Shown here: piece after piece, positions 1-7,153 of the stretch | Layout: each line of letters begins with the position of its first letter | Position numbering within the stretch: the stretch's first letter is position 1 | NCBI GenBank assembly: GCA_021442965.1 | Contig: JABUUX010000036.1 | Location: 1 to 7,153, forward strand | Direction of reading: 5' to 3' | Source: Treponema sp. | GTDB lineage: Bacteria > Spirochaetota > Spirochaetia > Treponematales > Treponemataceae | DNA length: 7,153 nucleotides | Position numbers and translations under genes: made by a program | Notes under the pieces: generated by a model | What the model saw: only the letters and a program-made list of their open reading frames with translations | What the model was told of the DNA's origin: nothing | Databases searched by the model: none

Positions 1-842
1 TTGAAGAAAGAACTTATCCAATAGAGCAAGTTGCTGAAACAGAAGATGATGATGAAGAAAACTATACTGACGAAGAGAGAAAAAAAATAGAAAAAGTAGT
101 TCCTGATGCAGAAATAAAAATTATGGGAACTTTCCAAACTATTAATTTTCGAAATGAAACGGATTCGTTTAGAGGGCTGGAAAAACTCGTTTCTGATAAT
201 TTCTTTAAGCTTTTTCCAAATTATCCGGAAGAACATACTATTTTGATTTCTGAAAATCGTTTGTTTAAAACACAACAGAAAAAGGAAACTGTAATTGGAG
301 AGTCAAGAATCCCTGATGCATTAATGATAACTTTTGATAAGAATCGTGAAATCCCACTCCGAGTCAGTCTTGTTGAATATGAGTGCTACGGAGAAGGAAA
401 ATTAAAAACTTCTGATAAGTCAAAGTATATGAACTCTCATATTATTCCGCAGCTTATGCAGTTTGCTTCGAGCTTCAGCACAATTACGGATAAAACAACT
501 CGTGATAACACAATTTCAGACTGGATTGAAAAAATAGAAACAACAGGAATTGATATTCAGAAAATTACAAGGTGGATGAAGGAATTGAATCCTGAAATTC
601 AGGAAGCTTTTGTAATCAGTCAGTTTGAGAAGGAATTAAAAAAAGCCTTTAACGGAAATATTCATGTGTATTTGATTATTGATGAATTAAGCCCTGAGCA
701 GAAAGAAACAATCAAAAACATTATTGCTGCATTCAAATTGGATTCGGGACAACCGATTATTTTTGATTCAAATATTGTTAGGCTTGTTCAGAAGATTAAT
801 TTCGTTGATAGCAATTTTGAGTATGGTTTGACGGCACAATAG
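1..842 (+). CDS. Probable PD-(D/E)xK-like nuclease protein, 5'-truncated by window edge
   Basis: The reading frame is open from base 3 to the TAG at 840-842 and has no start codon before the ATG at 123. That ATG lacks a Shine-Dalgarno sequence, so I read it as an internal Met and the gene as entering from the left. Bases 3-122 encode a hydrophilic acidic linker (AETEDDDEENYTDEER) typical of an inter-domain tether. Numbering from Met 123, the 239-residue part has an IPD motif at 63-65 (Asp65), then a hydrophobic strand ending in E-Y-E (Glu85, Glu87), with Lys93 nearby, then HIIPQLMQFAS (about 102-112). This D...ExE/K spacing followed by a helix with H..PQ resembles restriction-endonuclease-like folds that cleave DNA. 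The usual ExK lysine is replaced by Glu, as in some ExE enzymes. The C-terminal part is helical and charged and I do not recognise it. Eight bases separate it from the DUF6361 gene, which suggests one operon. Coding in this frame is near certain; the nuclease call is tentative. If translation starts at 123 the product is 239 residues. Confidence 0.72.
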   Translation, partial: EERTYPIEQVAETEDDDEENYTDEERKKIEKVVPDAEIKIMGTFQTINFRNETDSFRGLEKLVSDNFFKLFPNYPEEHTILISENRLFKTQQKKETVIGESRIPDALMITFDKNREIPLRVSLVEYECYGEGKLKTSDKSKYMNSHIIPQLMQFASSFSTITDKTTRDNTISDWIEKIETTGIDIQKITRWMKELNPEIQEAFVISQFEKELKKAFNGNIHVYLIIDELSPEQKETIKNIIAAFKLDSGQPIIFDSNIVRLVQKINFVDSNFEYGLTAQ

Positions 843-846
843 GACT
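841..846 (+). promoter_or_regulatory. Ribosome binding site of the DUF6361 gene
   Basis: AGGA at 841-844 overlaps the stop codon of the upstream gene and sits six bases before the ATG at 851. It supports that start and implies that ribosomes finishing the first gene can reinitiate on the second. Confidence 0.6.
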
Positions 847-850
847 TAGT

Positions 851-2041
851 ATGCAATTAGGCTGGATAGATTTTTCAGAAAGTGACAGAAAAAAAGTATT
901 GGAGGTAATACAGCTTCTCAGTACTAAAGGTGCAGTAGATGAACTTGGATTTGGAATAATTCGAGATGGGTTTGCAGATTATTTCTTTCCAGGAACTTCA
1001 ACTGTTCAAACTCGAGCCAAGTATTTTGTTCTAGTTCCATATATCTTAAAAGAGGCAGCAAGTGAACAGAATCCAACCAAGTTTCTTGATAATACGGAAA
1101 AAAATATTGCAACCGAACTATACAAAAAAGGTGAAAGAAACGGATTGATTGGGAGTGATTCGATTGCTGCGGGTAAATGGGTTATCAGACCTCCGTCAGA
1201 TATCTATTGGAATGGAATAAAAAAAATGGGAATTTTTAGAGGAGATATTTCCATAAATCAATACTTTCAGGAAGTTTCAAAAATAAAGAAGATACAGAGA
1301 AATAATAGTGGGAATACTTCGAGTCAGGAAGAAGGTGAACACGATGACTGGGATGCAGGAAGAGATACTGTCATAAACTTCTGGGATATTCCAACTTATA
1401 AAAAGAACTGGAGAGATAATCTCAGTATTGAACTTTCAAATAAAGAAGCCTCTTTTTTGAAAAAGAAAATTCTGTCACTAAAAACGAAGAAAGGGGAGCA
1501 GACATTATATTCATATATTCTTGAAAACAGACTGGAACTAACTGAAAAAGATTCATTTGAAGATTTGTATAATAAATTAAAGAAACAAATTGGACCAGAG
1601 ATGGCGGGAATGATGGATCTTGCAAATAAGTTTAATTATTTGGCGATGATTGCTAAATGCCGTTATAACATTATTCTCTCTGATGGTAATAATCTTGAAG
1701 CTAAAAAAAATTGGGAAATATATCAAAATCGCTTGGAGAAAATAGCTTGTGTTGACGTTGATAAAATTTTTCAAGAACTGAATTTAAGAAACTCAGCTTT
1801 AAAATCCTTTCTAAAACAACTTCAGTCATTATTGTTGAAAAATGAAATTGAGAAAGTTGATGAATTAATAATTTTTCGGGAAAAACAGTTAAAAGGATCC
1901 GATAGGGCAAAATTATTACATCCAGAAAGATACAATCCAGAGGATTTAAAAAATTATTTTGTCGGCACTTTATTTTTGGATTATCGAATGCACAGTGCAA
2001 TTCGAATTTTAAACGATATTTATGGAGCTGAAAGTGTTTAA
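851..2041 (+). CDS. DUF6361 family protein
   Basis: This 396-residue protein carries the N-terminal signature I associate with DUF6361. It opens with LGWIDFS (3-9) and continues with DELGFGIIRD (30-39), then FFPGTSTVQTRAKYF (45-59) and a hydrophobic VPYI. The family has no established biochemical activity known to me, although members recur beside helicases and nucleases in defence-like loci. A polar, acidic segment around 153-171 (SQEEGEHDDWDAG) separates the conserved head from a mostly helical, lysine-rich second half. A C-terminal block, HPERYNPEDL followed by LDYRMHSAIRIL, is probably a conserved helical element. There is no signal peptide or membrane segment, so it is likely cytoplasmic. 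The ATG start is backed by AGGA six bases upstream. Its 3' end overlaps the PLD gene, so the two are probably made in proportion. A scaffold, sensor or DNA-binding role would be a guess. Family assignment is strong, function unknown. Confidence 0.88.
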   Translation: MQLGWIDFSESDRKKVLEVIQLLSTKGAVDELGFGIIRDGFADYFFPGTSTVQTRAKYFVLVPYILKEAASEQNPTKFLDNTEKNIATELYKKGERNGLIGSDSIAAGKWVIRPPSDIYWNGIKKMGIFRGDISINQYFQEVSKIKKIQRNNSGNTSSQEEGEHDDWDAGRDTVINFWDIPTYKKNWRDNLSIELSNKEASFLKKKILSLKTKKGEQTLYSYILENRLELTEKDSFEDLYNKLKKQIGPEMAGMMDLANKFNYLAMIAKCRYNIILSDGNNLEAKKNWEIYQNRLEKIACVDVDKIFQELNLRNSALKSFLKQLQSLLLKNEIEKVDELIIFREKQLKGSDRAKLLHPERYNPEDLKNYFVGTLFLDYRMHSAIRILNDIYGAESV

Positions 2042-3881
2042 ACCAAACGAAAGAAAAGATCGCTTAAACTACTGCAAACTTTTGAACTGTCCAGAAGGAT
2101 ATTCTTTAGATTATGCATTGGGAACAACCTATTCTTTAGATTTAGAGACACTTGCAGCTGTTTGCTTTTCTCTTGGAATAGACAGTGAATATAGTGAAAG
2201 TATGATGAACAATCCTGTAATTTTACTTAACGCTTTCCAAAAAATTTCAGACAAAATCTTGATTTTTCATGAGCCGGGGCAGATTCATTTACCAAAAAAG
2301 ATTTCACAATTAGATTTTCTTCTCGAGAAGATGGTTGTTCCAGTTTTATTGAAAAAGGACCGCTTTCAAAACCGATATCCAGCATTCCACCCCAAAATAT
2401 GGGTTCTCCGTTATGTTAATGTTTGCGGTGAATATCTATACAGACTTCTTATTTTGAGCAGGAATCTGACTTTTGATAGAAGCTGGGATTTTTGTTTTGC
2501 AATTGACGGGAATCCGGATCAGGAAAACAAGGGAAATGGAGAAACGGTTTCTGATTTCTTGGATTTCTTAATAAAATATATTCCAGAAGACTTAAACGAG
2601 TCAAAACAGATAAAAGAGAAAATAAAAAACATCAGTGACGAATTAAGGACCGTTTTCTTTGATACGGATAACAATAATTTTTCAGATTTTGTTTTTATGC
2701 CTTTGGGTATAGGAGATAAAACATATCCATTAAAAGAAGAACGTCTGTTAAATCGTAATAAAAACTTTGATGAACTGGTAGTTGTTTCTCCGTTTCTGTC
2801 AAATGAAATAATGGAAATATTAAATCAACAGGGGCGAAATTCTGATAGGCATAAGAGAACACTTTTTACAAGAGATTTTTCTCTTAAAAAAATTGGAAAT
2901 AAAAATCTATCACATATGGATGTTTACACTGTAAAGGATACTATTTATGAGGGAGAAGAGCTTATCTCTGAAGATAGTGATAATGAATCTATAAAACAGA
3001 ATCAAGATATCCATGCCAAAATATATCAGTTGGATTACAAGAAAGAGCATTACCTTTATTTTGGATCTGCTAATGCGACACGAAATGGTTTTTATAAAAA
3101 TGTAGAAGTATTGTGCAGACTTTCTTCTGATAAGTACACATGTCAAAAATTTAAGAATGAATTAATAGGTGATAAAGAGACAGGGGCTTTCCAGAAAGTG
3201 GATATTTCAACAATTGTTTCGGAAACAGATGTCAGCGAGAAGGTTCTGCTTGATACATTAGAGCAGGGAATAAAGGAAATCTGTCATGCAAAATCCAAAG
3301 GCACAATAATCGCTTCAGATGGGAATAAATATAAGCTTTCAATAAATATAAAAATTCCATCAGGTTTTAATGCAGCAAATTATGAACTGGCTCTCTTTAA
3401 TTCTAACAGAAAAATAACACTAAAAGAACAGATGGTTTTTTCAGATTTAGGGTTAATGGATCTGAGTGAATTTTATGTTCTTTCTGCAAAAGCAAAAGAT
3501 AAGCATGGTGAAGAAGTTTGTGTTGAAAGAATAATAAAAATACCAACTTCTCCAATACCTGAAGAAAGGGACAAGAATGTAATAAAAAGTATAATCAATA
3601 GCAAAGAAACATTTTTTGAATATATTTCTTTTGTATTATCTGATGACAATGTTTTAACAGCATTTGAAAATAAGAATAAGAAACTCTTGGGTTTAGAACA
3701 TAGTGAAACAGAAGAAATTCCTGCTGTGTATGAAAAACTGCTCAAAGTTTGTTTGATTGATAAAGACAGAATTCATGACCTTCAGTTTGTAATGGACAAT
3801 ATTGATGATAAGGGAATAGTGCCAGATGAATTTAGAAAACTATATGAATTATTCATTGGTGCTATGGGTGGTCAGAAATGA
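2022..3881 (+). CDS. Phospholipase D superfamily protein (putative nuclease)
   Basis: This 619-residue protein has the two-lobe architecture of PLD-superfamily enzymes, which act on phosphodiesters and in defence loci are usually DNA nucleases. Lobe 1 has HPK at 123-125 followed by LSRNLT (145-150); the Asp expected five residues after the Lys is Arg130. Lobe 2 begins with DELVVVSPFLS (250-259) and holds a complete motif: His331, Lys333, Asp338, then YFGSANAT (346-353). The N-terminal stretch ALGTTYSLDLETLA is typical of the long PLD proteins paired with SNF2-like helicases. An acidic loop at about 310-322 precedes the second motif. Residues 420-520 look beta-rich, and the C-terminal 100 residues are helical; I do not recognise either. 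No signal peptide is seen. The ATG at 2022 overlaps gene 2 by 20 bases but has no good ribosome site. The GTG at 2034 does, and would shorten the protein by four residues. The gene ends in an ATGA overlap with the helicase, its likely partner. It is comparable in role to DISARM DrmC, by analogy only. Confidence 0.87.
   Translation: MELKVFKPNERKDRLNYCKLLNCPEGYSLDYALGTTYSLDLETLAAVCFSLGIDSEYSESMMNNPVILLNAFQKISDKILIFHEPGQIHLPKKISQLDFLLEKMVVPVLLKKDRFQNRYPAFHPKIWVLRYVNVCGEYLYRLLILSRNLTFDRSWDFCFAIDGNPDQENKGNGETVSDFLDFLIKYIPEDLNESKQIKEKIKNISDELRTVFFDTDNNNFSDFVFMPLGIGDKTYPLKEERLLNRNKNFDELVVVSPFLSNEIMEILNQQGRNSDRHKRTLFTRDFSLKKIGNKNLSHMDVYTVKDTIYEGEELISEDSDNESIKQNQDIHAKIYQLDYKKEHYLYFGSANATRNGFYKNVEVLCRLSSDKYTCQKFKNELIGDKETGAFQKVDISTIVSETDVSEKVLLDTLEQGIKEICHAKSKGTIIASDGNKYKLSINIKIPSGFNAANYELALFNSNRKITLKEQMVFSDLGLMDLSEFYVLSAKAKDKHGEEVCVERIIKIPTSPIPEERDKNVIKSIINSKETFFEYISFVLSDDNVLTAFENKNKKLLGLEHSETEEIPAVYEKLLKVCLIDKDRIHDLQFVMDNIDDKGIVPDEFRKLYELFIGAMGGQK
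2024..2027 (+). promoter_or_regulatory. GGAG ribosome site favouring the GTG start at 2034
   Basis: GGAG lies six bases before the GTG at 2034, which is in frame with the PLD gene. No Shine-Dalgarno match precedes the ATG at 2022 (upstream bases are TTTTAAACGATATTT). If GTG is used, the overlap with gene 2 shrinks to eight bases (GTGTTTAA), a common coupled-translation arrangement. Confidence 0.45.
3866..3871 (+). promoter_or_regulatory. Weak ribosome site of the helicase gene
   Basis: GGGTGG, a four-of-six match to AGGAGG, ends six bases before the ATG at 3878. That ATG overlaps the PLD stop codon as ATGA. The in-frame ATG at 3887 has no comparable upstream site, so 3878 is preferred. Confidence 0.4.
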
Positions 3882-6800
3882 ACAAAATGGATAAGAAAGT
3901 AATTTTAGACCAGGAAGATAAGACAATAAGCATTCTAAAAGATTTTCAAAAGGCAACTGTTGAAAGAATTGCGTATTTGTTTACACATGACCAAAATAGG
4001 GTTTTGGTTGCAGATGAAGTAGGGTTGGGGAAAACTCTTGTTGCAAAGGGGGTAATAGCAAAAACTGCCAGTATACGTTTTCAAGAAGGAGATGATTGTT
4101 TTAAAACAATTTATATCTGTTCCAATCAAGTTATTGCTAAACAAAACATTTCAAAGCTTAATATCTTTGGTGTAAATACAGATTATTCATCCGATACAAG
4201 ACTTTCTATGCAACATCTTGTTATTTGGGAACGAAAAGTTACGAAACAAAATGGGAATAATCAATTCATTCAGTTAATTCCATTAACACCTCAGACTTCT
4301 TTTAGTCTTGGAAGTGGGCAAGGTACTGCAGGGGAAAGGGCATTAATATATACAATTCTTGAAGAAATATCGGAGGTAAAAAAAACAAGACTTAATACTC
4401 TTTTCAGCAGAAAGGTTTCAGATGAAAGGTGGACTTATGAAAAAAAGTTGTATAAAAAACGAGTAAAAGGTTGTGATAAAAACTCAAAAGGCAAATATCT
4501 AAAAGACCTTATTGGCAGGATAAAGAAATACGACAAAACACACAAAATAATTACAGAACTGAATGATTATCTTGTGCGAAATAGCGCAAAACAGAAAGGA
4601 GAAAATGACTCGGCTATTATTTCAAAATTACGACAAATGTTTGCAGAAATTTCAGTAGAGATGCTAGAACCTGATTTAATAATCATGGATGAATTTCAGA
4701 GATTTAAATTCATGCTTAATGCAGAGGCAAATTCTGGTTCAGACTTGGGAATCCTGGTAAACAAATTTTTTAGAAATAATAATAACCTTACAAGAGTTCT
4801 TTTACTCTCTGCGACTCCATATAAACTGTATTCAACGTTGGACGAAATTGAAGAAAATGGACAAACAAATGACCATTACGAAGAGTTCTTTGAGGTCATT
4901 AATTTCCTTTTTGACAGTGATAAAAAACAGAAAAAATTCAAAACCATTTGGGAAGATTATTCGAATAAACTTACCGAAATAAAATCTGGTGACACTGCAA
5001 TTTTATATGCAAAAAATAAGGCAGAAGAAGCTTTGTATCAAAGTGTTTGTAGAACAGAACGAATTGCTGTTATGGAAAATTCAGATTTTATAGATGATTC
5101 AAGTGTAAAGAAATCGATTGAAATTCATGAATCAGATATTTTGTCTTATATGCAGATGGGAAAATTAGCAATGGAAACAAAACAGAAGCTGTCATTCCCA
5201 GTAGACTATGCAAAGAGTTGTCCATATTTAATGACCTTTATGAATTCATATAAATTGAAGGAAGGAATTGAAAAATATTTTGAAGAAAATACTGCGGAAA
5301 TAGATAAGGCAAATCATGATTTAATTTGGATAAACAAGGAATTAATAAACAATTATAAAGCACTGCCTCCAGTTAATGCTCGCCTTGAAGAATTAAAGGC
5401 AAATATATTCCAAAATAAAGCTGAACTTCTTTTATGGGTTCCTCCATCTAAGCCATATTATGAATTAAGCGGAGTATATGAAGGGTCAAAAAATTTTTCG
5501 AAGATACTAGTATTTTCGTCTTGGGAAATGGTTCCAAAGATGATCGGATGTATGGTTTCTTATGAAGCAGAGAGAAGAACAGTAGGGAAACTAGTAGAGT
5601 TATCTAAGAACCATAAAAATACAAATTATTTTGCAGAGAATAAAAAAAGATTCCCTGTTCCACGACTTAGATTCAATGTATCAAAAAATGCAGCTACAGG
5701 AATGTCTCTTTTTAATTTAATTTATCCATCAGAGACATTGGCGACTTTGTTCGATCCTATAGATGCCAGTAATAGTCATCTTTCTTTAAAACAGTTAAAA
5801 AAGCAATTGGAATCTAAATTGTCCGAGAAGTTAAAGAATTTAAATGAATATGTGTCGTCTGATGTATCAGATAGAGAGAAGCGTAAGTGGTACTATCTTG
5901 CACCTATGTTGCTTGATGGGAAAGCCAAAGCATTAGAATGGATAAAGACTGTCAGAGATTCATTCTCACAAAAAGATAACAGAGGTTTTTTAGATGATGA
6001 AATAGAAGAAGGGGAAATAGCTGATTCAAGTGAAGGAAATACATTAATTAAAAAGCACCTGGATGTATTGGAAAAGGAACTGCAAAATTTGAAGCTTGGA
6101 AACATGCCAGATGATTTAGTTTCTGTATTGGTCGACCAAGTATTAGGTTCTTTCGCGGTTTGTTTATATCGAACCTACAAAGACAAACAGATAGCAACAG
6201 AATTAGCTAGAACGTTTATAAATAGATTTAATACAACAGAGAATACTGCAATTGTCATGCTGTGCTACAATGATTTTTCCAACGATGACGAAAGTGATGA
6301 TGCATATTGGAAAAATGTTTTGAAATATTGTCGGGATGGAAATTTTCAGGCAATGATTGACGAATACTATGAACTTTTATATGAAGGGGAAAAGATTGGA
6401 AGTTCAGATTCAGGTATACAAACAAAAGTCGCAGAAAAAATGAACAGAGCACTTTCTTTTCACACGGTAAGTTATAGAGTTGATACTTTCTCCGATTTAA
6501 AGAACAGAATCATTTTAAAAACAAAAACAGAAACAAATATGAGATCTCATTTTGCAGTCGCCTTTACAAAAAGCAAAAGCGATGATTCAAAAAACGTCAG
6601 ACGAAAAGAAAATCTTAGAGACAGTTTTAACAGTCCGATGAGACCTTTTATTCTGGCTTCAACTTCAGTTGGGCAAGAAGGATTGGATTTTCACAATTAT
6701 TGCAGAAAGATTATGCATTGGAATCTTCCCACTAACCCTATAGATTTAGAACAACGCGAGGGACGAATCAATAGATTCAAGTGTCTAGCTATTCGTCAGA

Positions 6801-7153
6801 ATATTGCAGAAATGTTTGCCGATAAAACTGATTTTAAAAAAGACGTGTGGTCAGAATTGTGGGATGCTGCAAATAAAAAAGCAATAGAAGATGCAAAAAG
6901 GGAAAAGCGTAAGAAATCCGACCTTATCCCATATTGGTGTTTAGGAAAAGACCAGAAGATAAAAATTGAACGTATTATTCCAATGTATCCAGTTAGTAAA
7001 GATGAAGTTGGATATACACGGTTGATAAAAATTCTTTCACTATATCGATTGACTCTGGGGCAGGCTCGTCAGGAAGAATTGCTGGATTATATATTTACCG
7101 AGATTGATGACGAAAAAGAAAGGGCGAATTTAAAGAAATTGTTTATAAATCTA
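3878..7153 (+). CDS. Large SF2 (SNF2/RapA-like) helicase, 3' end beyond window
   Basis: The frame stays open for 1092 codons from the ATGA overlap to the last base, with no stop, so the gene is cut by the window edge. It encodes an ATP-dependent DNA translocase or helicase. Visible motifs in order: a Q-like LKDFQ (20-24); Walker A ADEVGLGKT (45-53, Lys52); motif Ia ICSNQ (80-84); Walker B DEFQRF (271-276), a variant of DEAH with Gln in the His position; motif III LSATPY (310-315); motif IV KILVFSSW (542-549); motif V STSVGQEGLDF (928-938); motif VI QREGRINR (959-966) with arginine-finger candidates Arg963 and Arg966. The tail has LIPYW (1016-1020) and YRLTLGQARQEELL (1056-1069), which I recall as the C-terminal signature of this helicase group; the true end is therefore probably close. 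Inserts are large: a lysine-rich one (about 168-228) between motifs I and II, and about 380 residues between IV and V, the latter with an acidic patch near 703-720. It is probably the motor for the adjacent PLD protein. It is too divergent for me to name a specific gene. Confidence 0.93.
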   Translation, partial: MNKMDKKVILDQEDKTISILKDFQKATVERIAYLFTHDQNRVLVADEVGLGKTLVAKGVIAKTASIRFQEGDDCFKTIYICSNQVIAKQNISKLNIFGVNTDYSSDTRLSMQHLVIWERKVTKQNGNNQFIQLIPLTPQTSFSLGSGQGTAGERALIYTILEEISEVKKTRLNTLFSRKVSDERWTYEKKLYKKRVKGCDKNSKGKYLKDLIGRIKKYDKTHKIITELNDYLVRNSAKQKGENDSAIISKLRQMFAEISVEMLEPDLIIMDEFQRFKFMLNAEANSGSDLGILVNKFFRNNNNLTRVLLLSATPYKLYSTLDEIEENGQTNDHYEEFFEVINFLFDSDKKQKKFKTIWEDYSNKLTEIKSGDTAILYAKNKAEEALYQSVCRTERIAVMENSDFIDDSSVKKSIEIHESDILSYMQMGKLAMETKQKLSFPVDYAKSCPYLMTFMNSYKLKEGIEKYFEENTAEIDKANHDLIWINKELINNYKALPPVNARLEELKANIFQNKAELLLWVPPSKPYYELSGVYEGSKNFSKILVFSSWEMVPKMIGCMVSYEAERRTVGKLVELSKNHKNTNYFAENKKRFPVPRLRFNVSKNAATGMSLFNLIYPSETLATLFDPIDASNSHLSLKQLKKQLESKLSEKLKNLNEYVSSDVSDREKRKWYYLAPMLLDGKAKALEWIKTVRDSFSQKDNRGFLDDEIEEGEIADSSEGNTLIKKHLDVLEKELQNLKLGNMPDDLVSVLVDQVLGSFAVCLYRTYKDKQIATELARTFINRFNTTENTAIVMLCYNDFSNDDESDDAYWKNVLKYCRDGNFQAMIDEYYELLYEGEKIGSSDSGIQTKVAEKMNRALSFHTVSYRVDTFSDLKNRIILKTKTETNMRSHFAVAFTKSKSDDSKNVRRKENLRDSFNSPMRPFILASTSVGQEGLDFHNYCRKIMHWNLPTNPIDLEQREGRINRFKCLAIRQNIAEMFADKTDFKKDVWSELWDAANKKAIEDAKREKRKKSDLIPYWCLGKDQKIKIERIIPMYPVSKDEVGYTRLIKILSLYRLTLGQARQEELLDYIFTEIDDEKERANLKKLFINL

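Follow-up and report, generated by a model that had tools for sequence, protein, structure and literature searches.

The 7,153-nucleotide contig JABUUX010000036.1 of Treponema sp. (hereafter referred to as the window, meaning the whole stretch of DNA analysed) carries four closely spaced genes on one strand. The first of these (gene 1) encodes a predicted nuclease, and the following three (genes 2–4) encode a DUF6361 protein, a PLD-family protein and a helicase. A preliminary description of the window, made from its letters, proposed that all four form a single anti-phage operon in which a helicase works together with one or two nucleases. Does the front gene belong to the system behind it, or is it a separate defence? 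Here we report that, as judged by sequence profiles, genes 2–4 are Azaca, a known bacterial anti-phage system (zacABC), and that gene 1 belongs to an unnamed family of known build. Gene 1 is normally autonomous, and occurs either by itself or beside a DNA methyltransferase of the N6-adenine/N4-cytosine type. We consider it likely that the window holds two defence units, an autonomous gene 1 nuclease and a zacABC Azaca system, probably expressed as one transcript.

Genes 2–4 and the Azaca system

The products of genes 2, 3 and 4 match the PADLOC profiles ZacA (residues 2–393), ZacB (near the full profile length) and ZacC (profile positions 5–1014 of 1019), respectively, and the three genes are adjacent and in order (Table 1). 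The Pfam domains of the three proteins comprise DUF6361, PLDc_2 and helicase domains. Gene 3 retains an intact pair of PLD-type HxK motifs (HPK 123 and HAK 331), of which the Pfam PLD model recovers only the second, and has a third HxK (HAK 422). The superfamily 2 (SF2) motifs I, II, III, V and VI of gene 4 are likewise intact. The window thus encodes the same three near full-length proteins, in the same order, as the Azaca system listed as a defence system in PADLOC-DB, and differs from it by the extra gene 8 bases upstream. Azaca had been named, unchecked, in the preliminary description, together with DUF6361, two PLD motifs and a set of SF2 helicase motifs, and all of these are borne out by the profiles and motif positions. 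The system was reportedly first described by Millman et al. in 2022. We know of no account of how Azaca tells self from foreign DNA. A table row in PMC10952713 gives a PLD-like domain in Azaca, and ZacC appears among the defence helicases in PMC12278908. In this copy, a predicted anti-phage system, the ZacC helicase would engage invading DNA and translocate along it, ZacB would be the cutting component, and ZacA may have a recognition role.

Two other systems with a similar composition were rejected for the window. The PADLOC candidate PDC-M27 likewise contains a PLD protein, an SNF2-type helicase and a 396-residue first gene. However, gene 2 has no M27A match, the first gene of PDC-M27 and gene 2 have no PADLOC family in common, and the matches of genes 3 and 4 to M27B (E = 5.8e-4) and M27C (E = 2.5e-23) compare with 4.2e-136 for ZacB and 0 for ZacC. 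DISARM, the core of which consists of DrmA, DrmB and DrmC, also brings PLD and helicase genes together, and ZacC matches the DrmD and DrmA profiles in its helicase motifs. Among the four proteins, however, there is no DrmB, and gene 3 gives a DrmC-like match of only E = 0.0012. Literature searches found no mention of DUF6361 or PDC-M27.

Gene 1 and its relatives

The start of the full gene 1 protein lies outside the window, and its N-terminal domain, which is off the contig, was read from relatives, most of those listed being about 400–425 residues long. In one relative (P0001), the modelled N terminus adopts a YTH/EVE/ASCH fold of the PUA superfamily. At the C terminus, the fold comparison returned nuclease-fold rows with weak support, and a 25-row alignment (A2; L019, L022, L023 and L028 left out) contains conserved acidic residues at the E of GLEKL (window positions 174–188), the PD of IPDAL (309–323) and the ExE of VEYEC (372–386). 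The probable PD-(D/E)xK-like domain of the preliminary description keeps its acidic residues, on a fold that is weakly supported. These models suggest that gene 1 encodes a PUA-superfamily (YTH/EVE-like) reader followed by a PD-(D/E)XK-like nuclease, the latter with weak fold support. The reader would recognise a base or a methyl mark on it, the nuclease domain would make the cut, and gene 1 would act independently.

Profile searches with 40 relatives of gene 1 yielded weak matches only, with best E values of 0.0018 for Pfam and 0.00052 for PADLOC. DUF7669 was matched weakly in 11 of the 40 (best E = 0.0061) and DDE_3 in 10 (best E = 0.0018), EVE and YTH were absent from the 25 listed of the 31 matched Pfam families, and the piece of gene 1 in the window gave no convincing NCBIfam model. 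A homologue in a Geitlerinema metagenome-assembled genome (MAG) is split over two frames (L028:9992–11231). Hachiman HamA has 11% sequence identity to gene 1; to our knowledge, Hachiman has no DUF6361 or PLD gene. The modification-dependent EVE/YTH–PD(D/E)XK nucleases resemble gene 1 relatives, in which a reader fold of the PUA superfamily precedes a putative restriction-like nuclease fold; such fusions are predicted to be type IV enzymes in Bell et al. 2020 (PMC7641849). Gene 1 differs in having no listed Pfam EVE/YTH match and frequent methyltransferase-like neighbours.

Gene 1 and zacABC are mostly found apart. A scan of genome contigs identified 28 gene 1 loci, in spirochaetes, Bacillota, Bacteroidota, Cyanobacteria, Ignavibacteria and Desulfobacteraceae, and two scans of viral contigs added seven loci and then one new one (8 in total); the first seven include two repeats of genomic loci and a pair with identical sequences. 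A tblastn search with the window proteins found the zac operon at none of the 28 genomic and 8 viral loci, and recovered gene 1, the positive control, in 36 of 36. The sole match to a zac protein was a helicase-motif match in L001, a locus from a Candidatus Treponema merdequi MAG. At least 1 kb lies downstream of gene 1 in 25 of the 28 genomic loci, loci being cut at contig ends.

The reverse comparison gave the same picture. With an Azaca locus defined as a ZacB-profile match of at least 180 bits (at E = 0.001 the profile also matched 5 of 14 control genomes), we identified Azaca in 5 of 296 genomes from the phylum of a Treponema MAG (G004), 9 of 398 from that of Clostridium magnum (G013) and 2 of 395 from that of a Saprospiraceae MAG (G007), and added a 17th locus from the family of the L001 genome. 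Gene 1 was detected at none of these 17 loci (tblastn, E 1e-4). In 13 of them the contig reaches 1 kb or more beyond zacA on its upstream side; in the remaining four it stops close to the operon or within it. Among 274 genomes of the L001 family, eight have gene 1 or pieces of it, and a close ZacB is present in five, in one case as a broken remnant; a single genome has both, on separate contigs. Gene 1 is therefore not a conserved fourth component, but at most a lineage-specific addition to Azaca. The assignment to defence was right, the last three genes being a known system, but the four are not a conserved set; as the preliminary description had itself named separate occurrence of the homologues as grounds for abandoning its proposal, the front nuclease does not stand as a general fourth gene.

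Several other candidates for a constant partner of gene 1 were rejected. Clustering of open reading frames (ORFs) from the 28 loci yielded three families present in 3 or 4 loci, none of them constantly adjacent. PADLOC and Pfam tallies of 121 neighbours (122 were listed and one very long ORF was dropped; L001, L003, L008, L018 and L019 had been dropped beforehand) showed no dominant partner, the commonest being mad2 (5 of 121), type II methyltransferase models (up to 4), and Uma2 and N6_N4_Mtase (3 each). Type I restriction–modification (R-M) or M27 as a general partner was excluded with the HsdR, HsdM, HsdS, M27A, M27B and M27C proteins of L001 and three neighbours as queries, which gave no tblastn match (E 1e-4) at any of the remaining 27 genomic loci or the 8 viral ones. 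A search with P0001 as the query gave no gene 1 match among plasmids or phages. The PHROGs families represented near gene 1 at four viral loci include ribonucleotide reductases, DNA polymerases and a sigma factor, on the basis of 46 of the 79 neighbours.

Methyltransferase neighbours and a proposed exchange behind gene 1

Each of the 7 distinct IMG/VR loci (L119, L120, L121/L122, L123, L124, L125 and L142) has, among the METHYLTRANSFERASE neighbours, an amino-methyltransferase-like gene of N6_N4- or D12-type appearance adjacent to gene 1, separated from it by about 60 to 110 bases when upstream and by 10 bases when downstream. Pfam confirms the N6_N4 or D12 type in five of these loci, directly or via an identical genomic locus. 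The adjacent copy in L121 has no Pfam match, a confirmed D12 copy lying 844 bases away, and L142, recovered after the pattern had been noticed, has a tblastn match (E = 1e-10) to another D12-type gene. Across the 31 distinct loci that remain of the 28 genomic and first seven viral ones after four duplicates were dropped, a methyltransferase-like ORF lies within 300 bases of gene 1 in 10. Among the other ORFs of 200 residues or more in these loci, the figure is 7 of 247 (Fisher p = 8e-7). Counting only Pfam-confirmed neighbours of gene 1 lowers the 10 to 8 of 31, with the comparison figure unchanged (p = 4e-5); these p values are optimistic, as the pattern was first noticed in the same loci. 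The calls were made by a motif-and-size rule and a hand list, which counted an 828-residue neighbour in L016 and the neighbour at 9161 in L121, both without a Pfam match. At 21 of the 31 loci there is no such neighbour within 300 bases, and the link to gene 1 is therefore frequent rather than obligatory.

This association raises the possibility, which we regard as doubtful but worth weighing, that gene 1 forms a classical R-M pair, cutting unmethylated DNA and being blocked by a cognate amino-methyltransferase encoded upstream of the contig, as HsdM is in L001. A candidate cognate gene stands alongside in 10 of the 31 loci of relatives, and in L001 HsdM ends 10 bases before gene 1; the window itself begins inside gene 1. 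However, several methyltransferase classes (N6_N4, D12, HsdM and Type ISP) are represented among the neighbours, most loci lack one within 300 bases, and the HsdM of L001 already has its own HsdR and HsdS. As to how gene 1 may act, the methylases alongside would favour a methylation-blocked, type II-like mode, whereas solitary copies and the reader fold would favour cutting of methylated DNA, as in type IV.

A comparison with L001, the nearest genomic relative, revealed a sharp break behind gene 1. The gene 1 proteins are 93% identical, and in L001 gene 1 follows a type I R-M operon and is itself followed, after 8 bases, by PDC-M27 A-B-C. The window and L001 share 83% DNA identity through gene 1 and none past its stop codon. 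Over the shared C-terminal 240 codons, NG86 estimates are dN 0.020 and dS 2.19 (saturated), a sign of strong constraint on gene 1, although the genes that follow it are different. L001 contains a defence island in one orientation (L001:653–17807), which comprises a PDC-M59B match, HsdS, HsdR, HsdM, gene 1 and PDC-M27 A-B-C. In one Treponema-like lineage, gene 1 may have become the front gene, with the module behind it, Azaca or PDC-M27, exchanged at the gene 1 stop codon. Protein records hint at further copies of the two arrangements: a gene 1 protein (P0006) and a ZacA protein (P0130) agree in source, in contig count (2) and in the length of the longest contig (11,465 bases), and another gene 1 protein (P0004) and a partial M27A protein (P0271) agree in a longest contig of 13,791. 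There may thus be two further contigs, one with gene 1 and zacA and one with gene 1 and M27A, although this lead comes from the lengths and not from the contigs themselves. The pairing of gene 1 with Azaca may be real in one lineage, represented by the window and perhaps one more contig.

Because the same gene precedes two PLD–helicase systems, a functional coupling of gene 1 and Azaca is possible. In its strongest form, gene 1 would be an accessory subunit of a true four-component system, binding ZacABC (or PDC-M27) and adding target recognition and a second nuclease. We consider this unlikely. The 8-base spacing before both systems, the possible second contigs and the strong purifying selection on gene 1 are in its favour. 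By contrast, gene 1 and zacABC were found apart at the 17 other Azaca loci and the 36 other gene 1 loci and, in the one family member that has both, on different contigs; M27A and ZacA have no PADLOC family in common; and the contig matches are notable for the ten closest gene 1 proteins only, for which 0.07 and 0.02 matches are expected by chance, as against about 1.0 and 0.4 over all 120 listed. We give somewhat less credence still to a broader interpretation, in which gene 1 would act as a movable front module that senses methylation, forming a phage-borne restriction-like pair with amino-methyltransferases and, in spirochaetes, being placed on interchangeable PLD–helicase machines, where its YTH-like reader would pick the target DNA; if so, Azaca in this lineage would be a methylation-gated system. 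That gene 1 was joined to zacA by random insertion or in a chimeric contig is highly improbable: the window is a single contig of 7,153 bases and no other locus was read with both genes side by side, but the break falls exactly at the stop codon with the same 8-base gap as in L001, the GC content at third codon positions (GC3) is 0.25–0.27 in all four genes, and a possible second contig would have gene 1 and zacA (the codon-usage correlation of 0.85 is uninformative here).

In the two-unit arrangement that we favour, gene 1 and Azaca would be stacked and act separately, probably on one transcript. The Azaca part is already known, and the window adds one more copy; the new part is the front gene, with its predicted reader-plus-nuclease build, its recurrent pairing with DNA amino-methyltransferases on phage-like contigs, and the two different PLD–helicase defences that follow it in close relatives. 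If its reader senses methylation, gene 1 would offer a testable handle on how such machines discriminate self from foreign DNA. Literature searches, on which alone its absence from print is based, found no description of the gene 1–Azaca arrangement.

Contig layout and Azaca loci elsewhere

The window appears to be the entire contig, its own ZacA being listed in the database on a 7,153-base contig. The four co-directional genes are spaced as the preliminary description had it, with an 8-base gap between genes 1 and 2 (843–850), an overlap of genes 2 and 3 of 20 bases with the ATG 2022 start or 8 bases with the GTG 2034 start, and an ATGA overlap of genes 3 and 4 (3878–3881). Gene 4 has no stop codon within the window. 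The GC content (0.32–0.33) is, like GC3, uniform over all four genes, including the gene 1–zacA junction, and tRNA and Rfam scans of the window gave no match.

Table 1 Features of the window and the evidence for each
Feature	Position	Strand	Evidence
Gene 1, 3′ part	3..842	+	C-terminal ~279 residues of a ~404-residue protein; sizes of relatives
Putative PD-(D/E)XK-like domain of gene 1	120..839	+	Alignment A2; model pTM 0.83; fold comparison rows
zacA (DUF6361)	851..2041	+	PADLOC ZacA E 1.9e-85; Pfam DUF6361 E 1.7e-23
zacB, PLD-family protein	2022..3881	+	PADLOC ZacB E 4.2e-136; HxK motifs 2385–2402, 3012–3026
zacC, SF2 helicase, nearly complete	3878..7153	+	PADLOC ZacC E 0
zacC motif I	4010..4036		
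zacC motif II	4688..4696		
zacC motif III	4802..4819		
zacC motif V	6659..6691		
zacC motif VI	6752..6775		

Among viral contigs, no close relative of the window ZacA was found. The Azaca loci of genomes G039 and G241 are divergent among the five in the phylum of G004. At one locus from the phylum of C. magnum (L109:70–4737), a 1,555-residue helicase-like ORF ends 11 bases before zacA, and in L113 (L113:6781–7773) a RAMA-domain match below the cutoff lies two genes upstream of zacA. The broken zacB remnant in the L001 family (L131:9261–10009) is 65–67% identical to that of the window over about 130 residues, and its genome yielded no gene 1 match. ZacB-like proteins also occur in the plasmid collection, on 34 plasmids that include 19 from Cronobacter, with 22.8–28.2% identity among the 20 matches listed.
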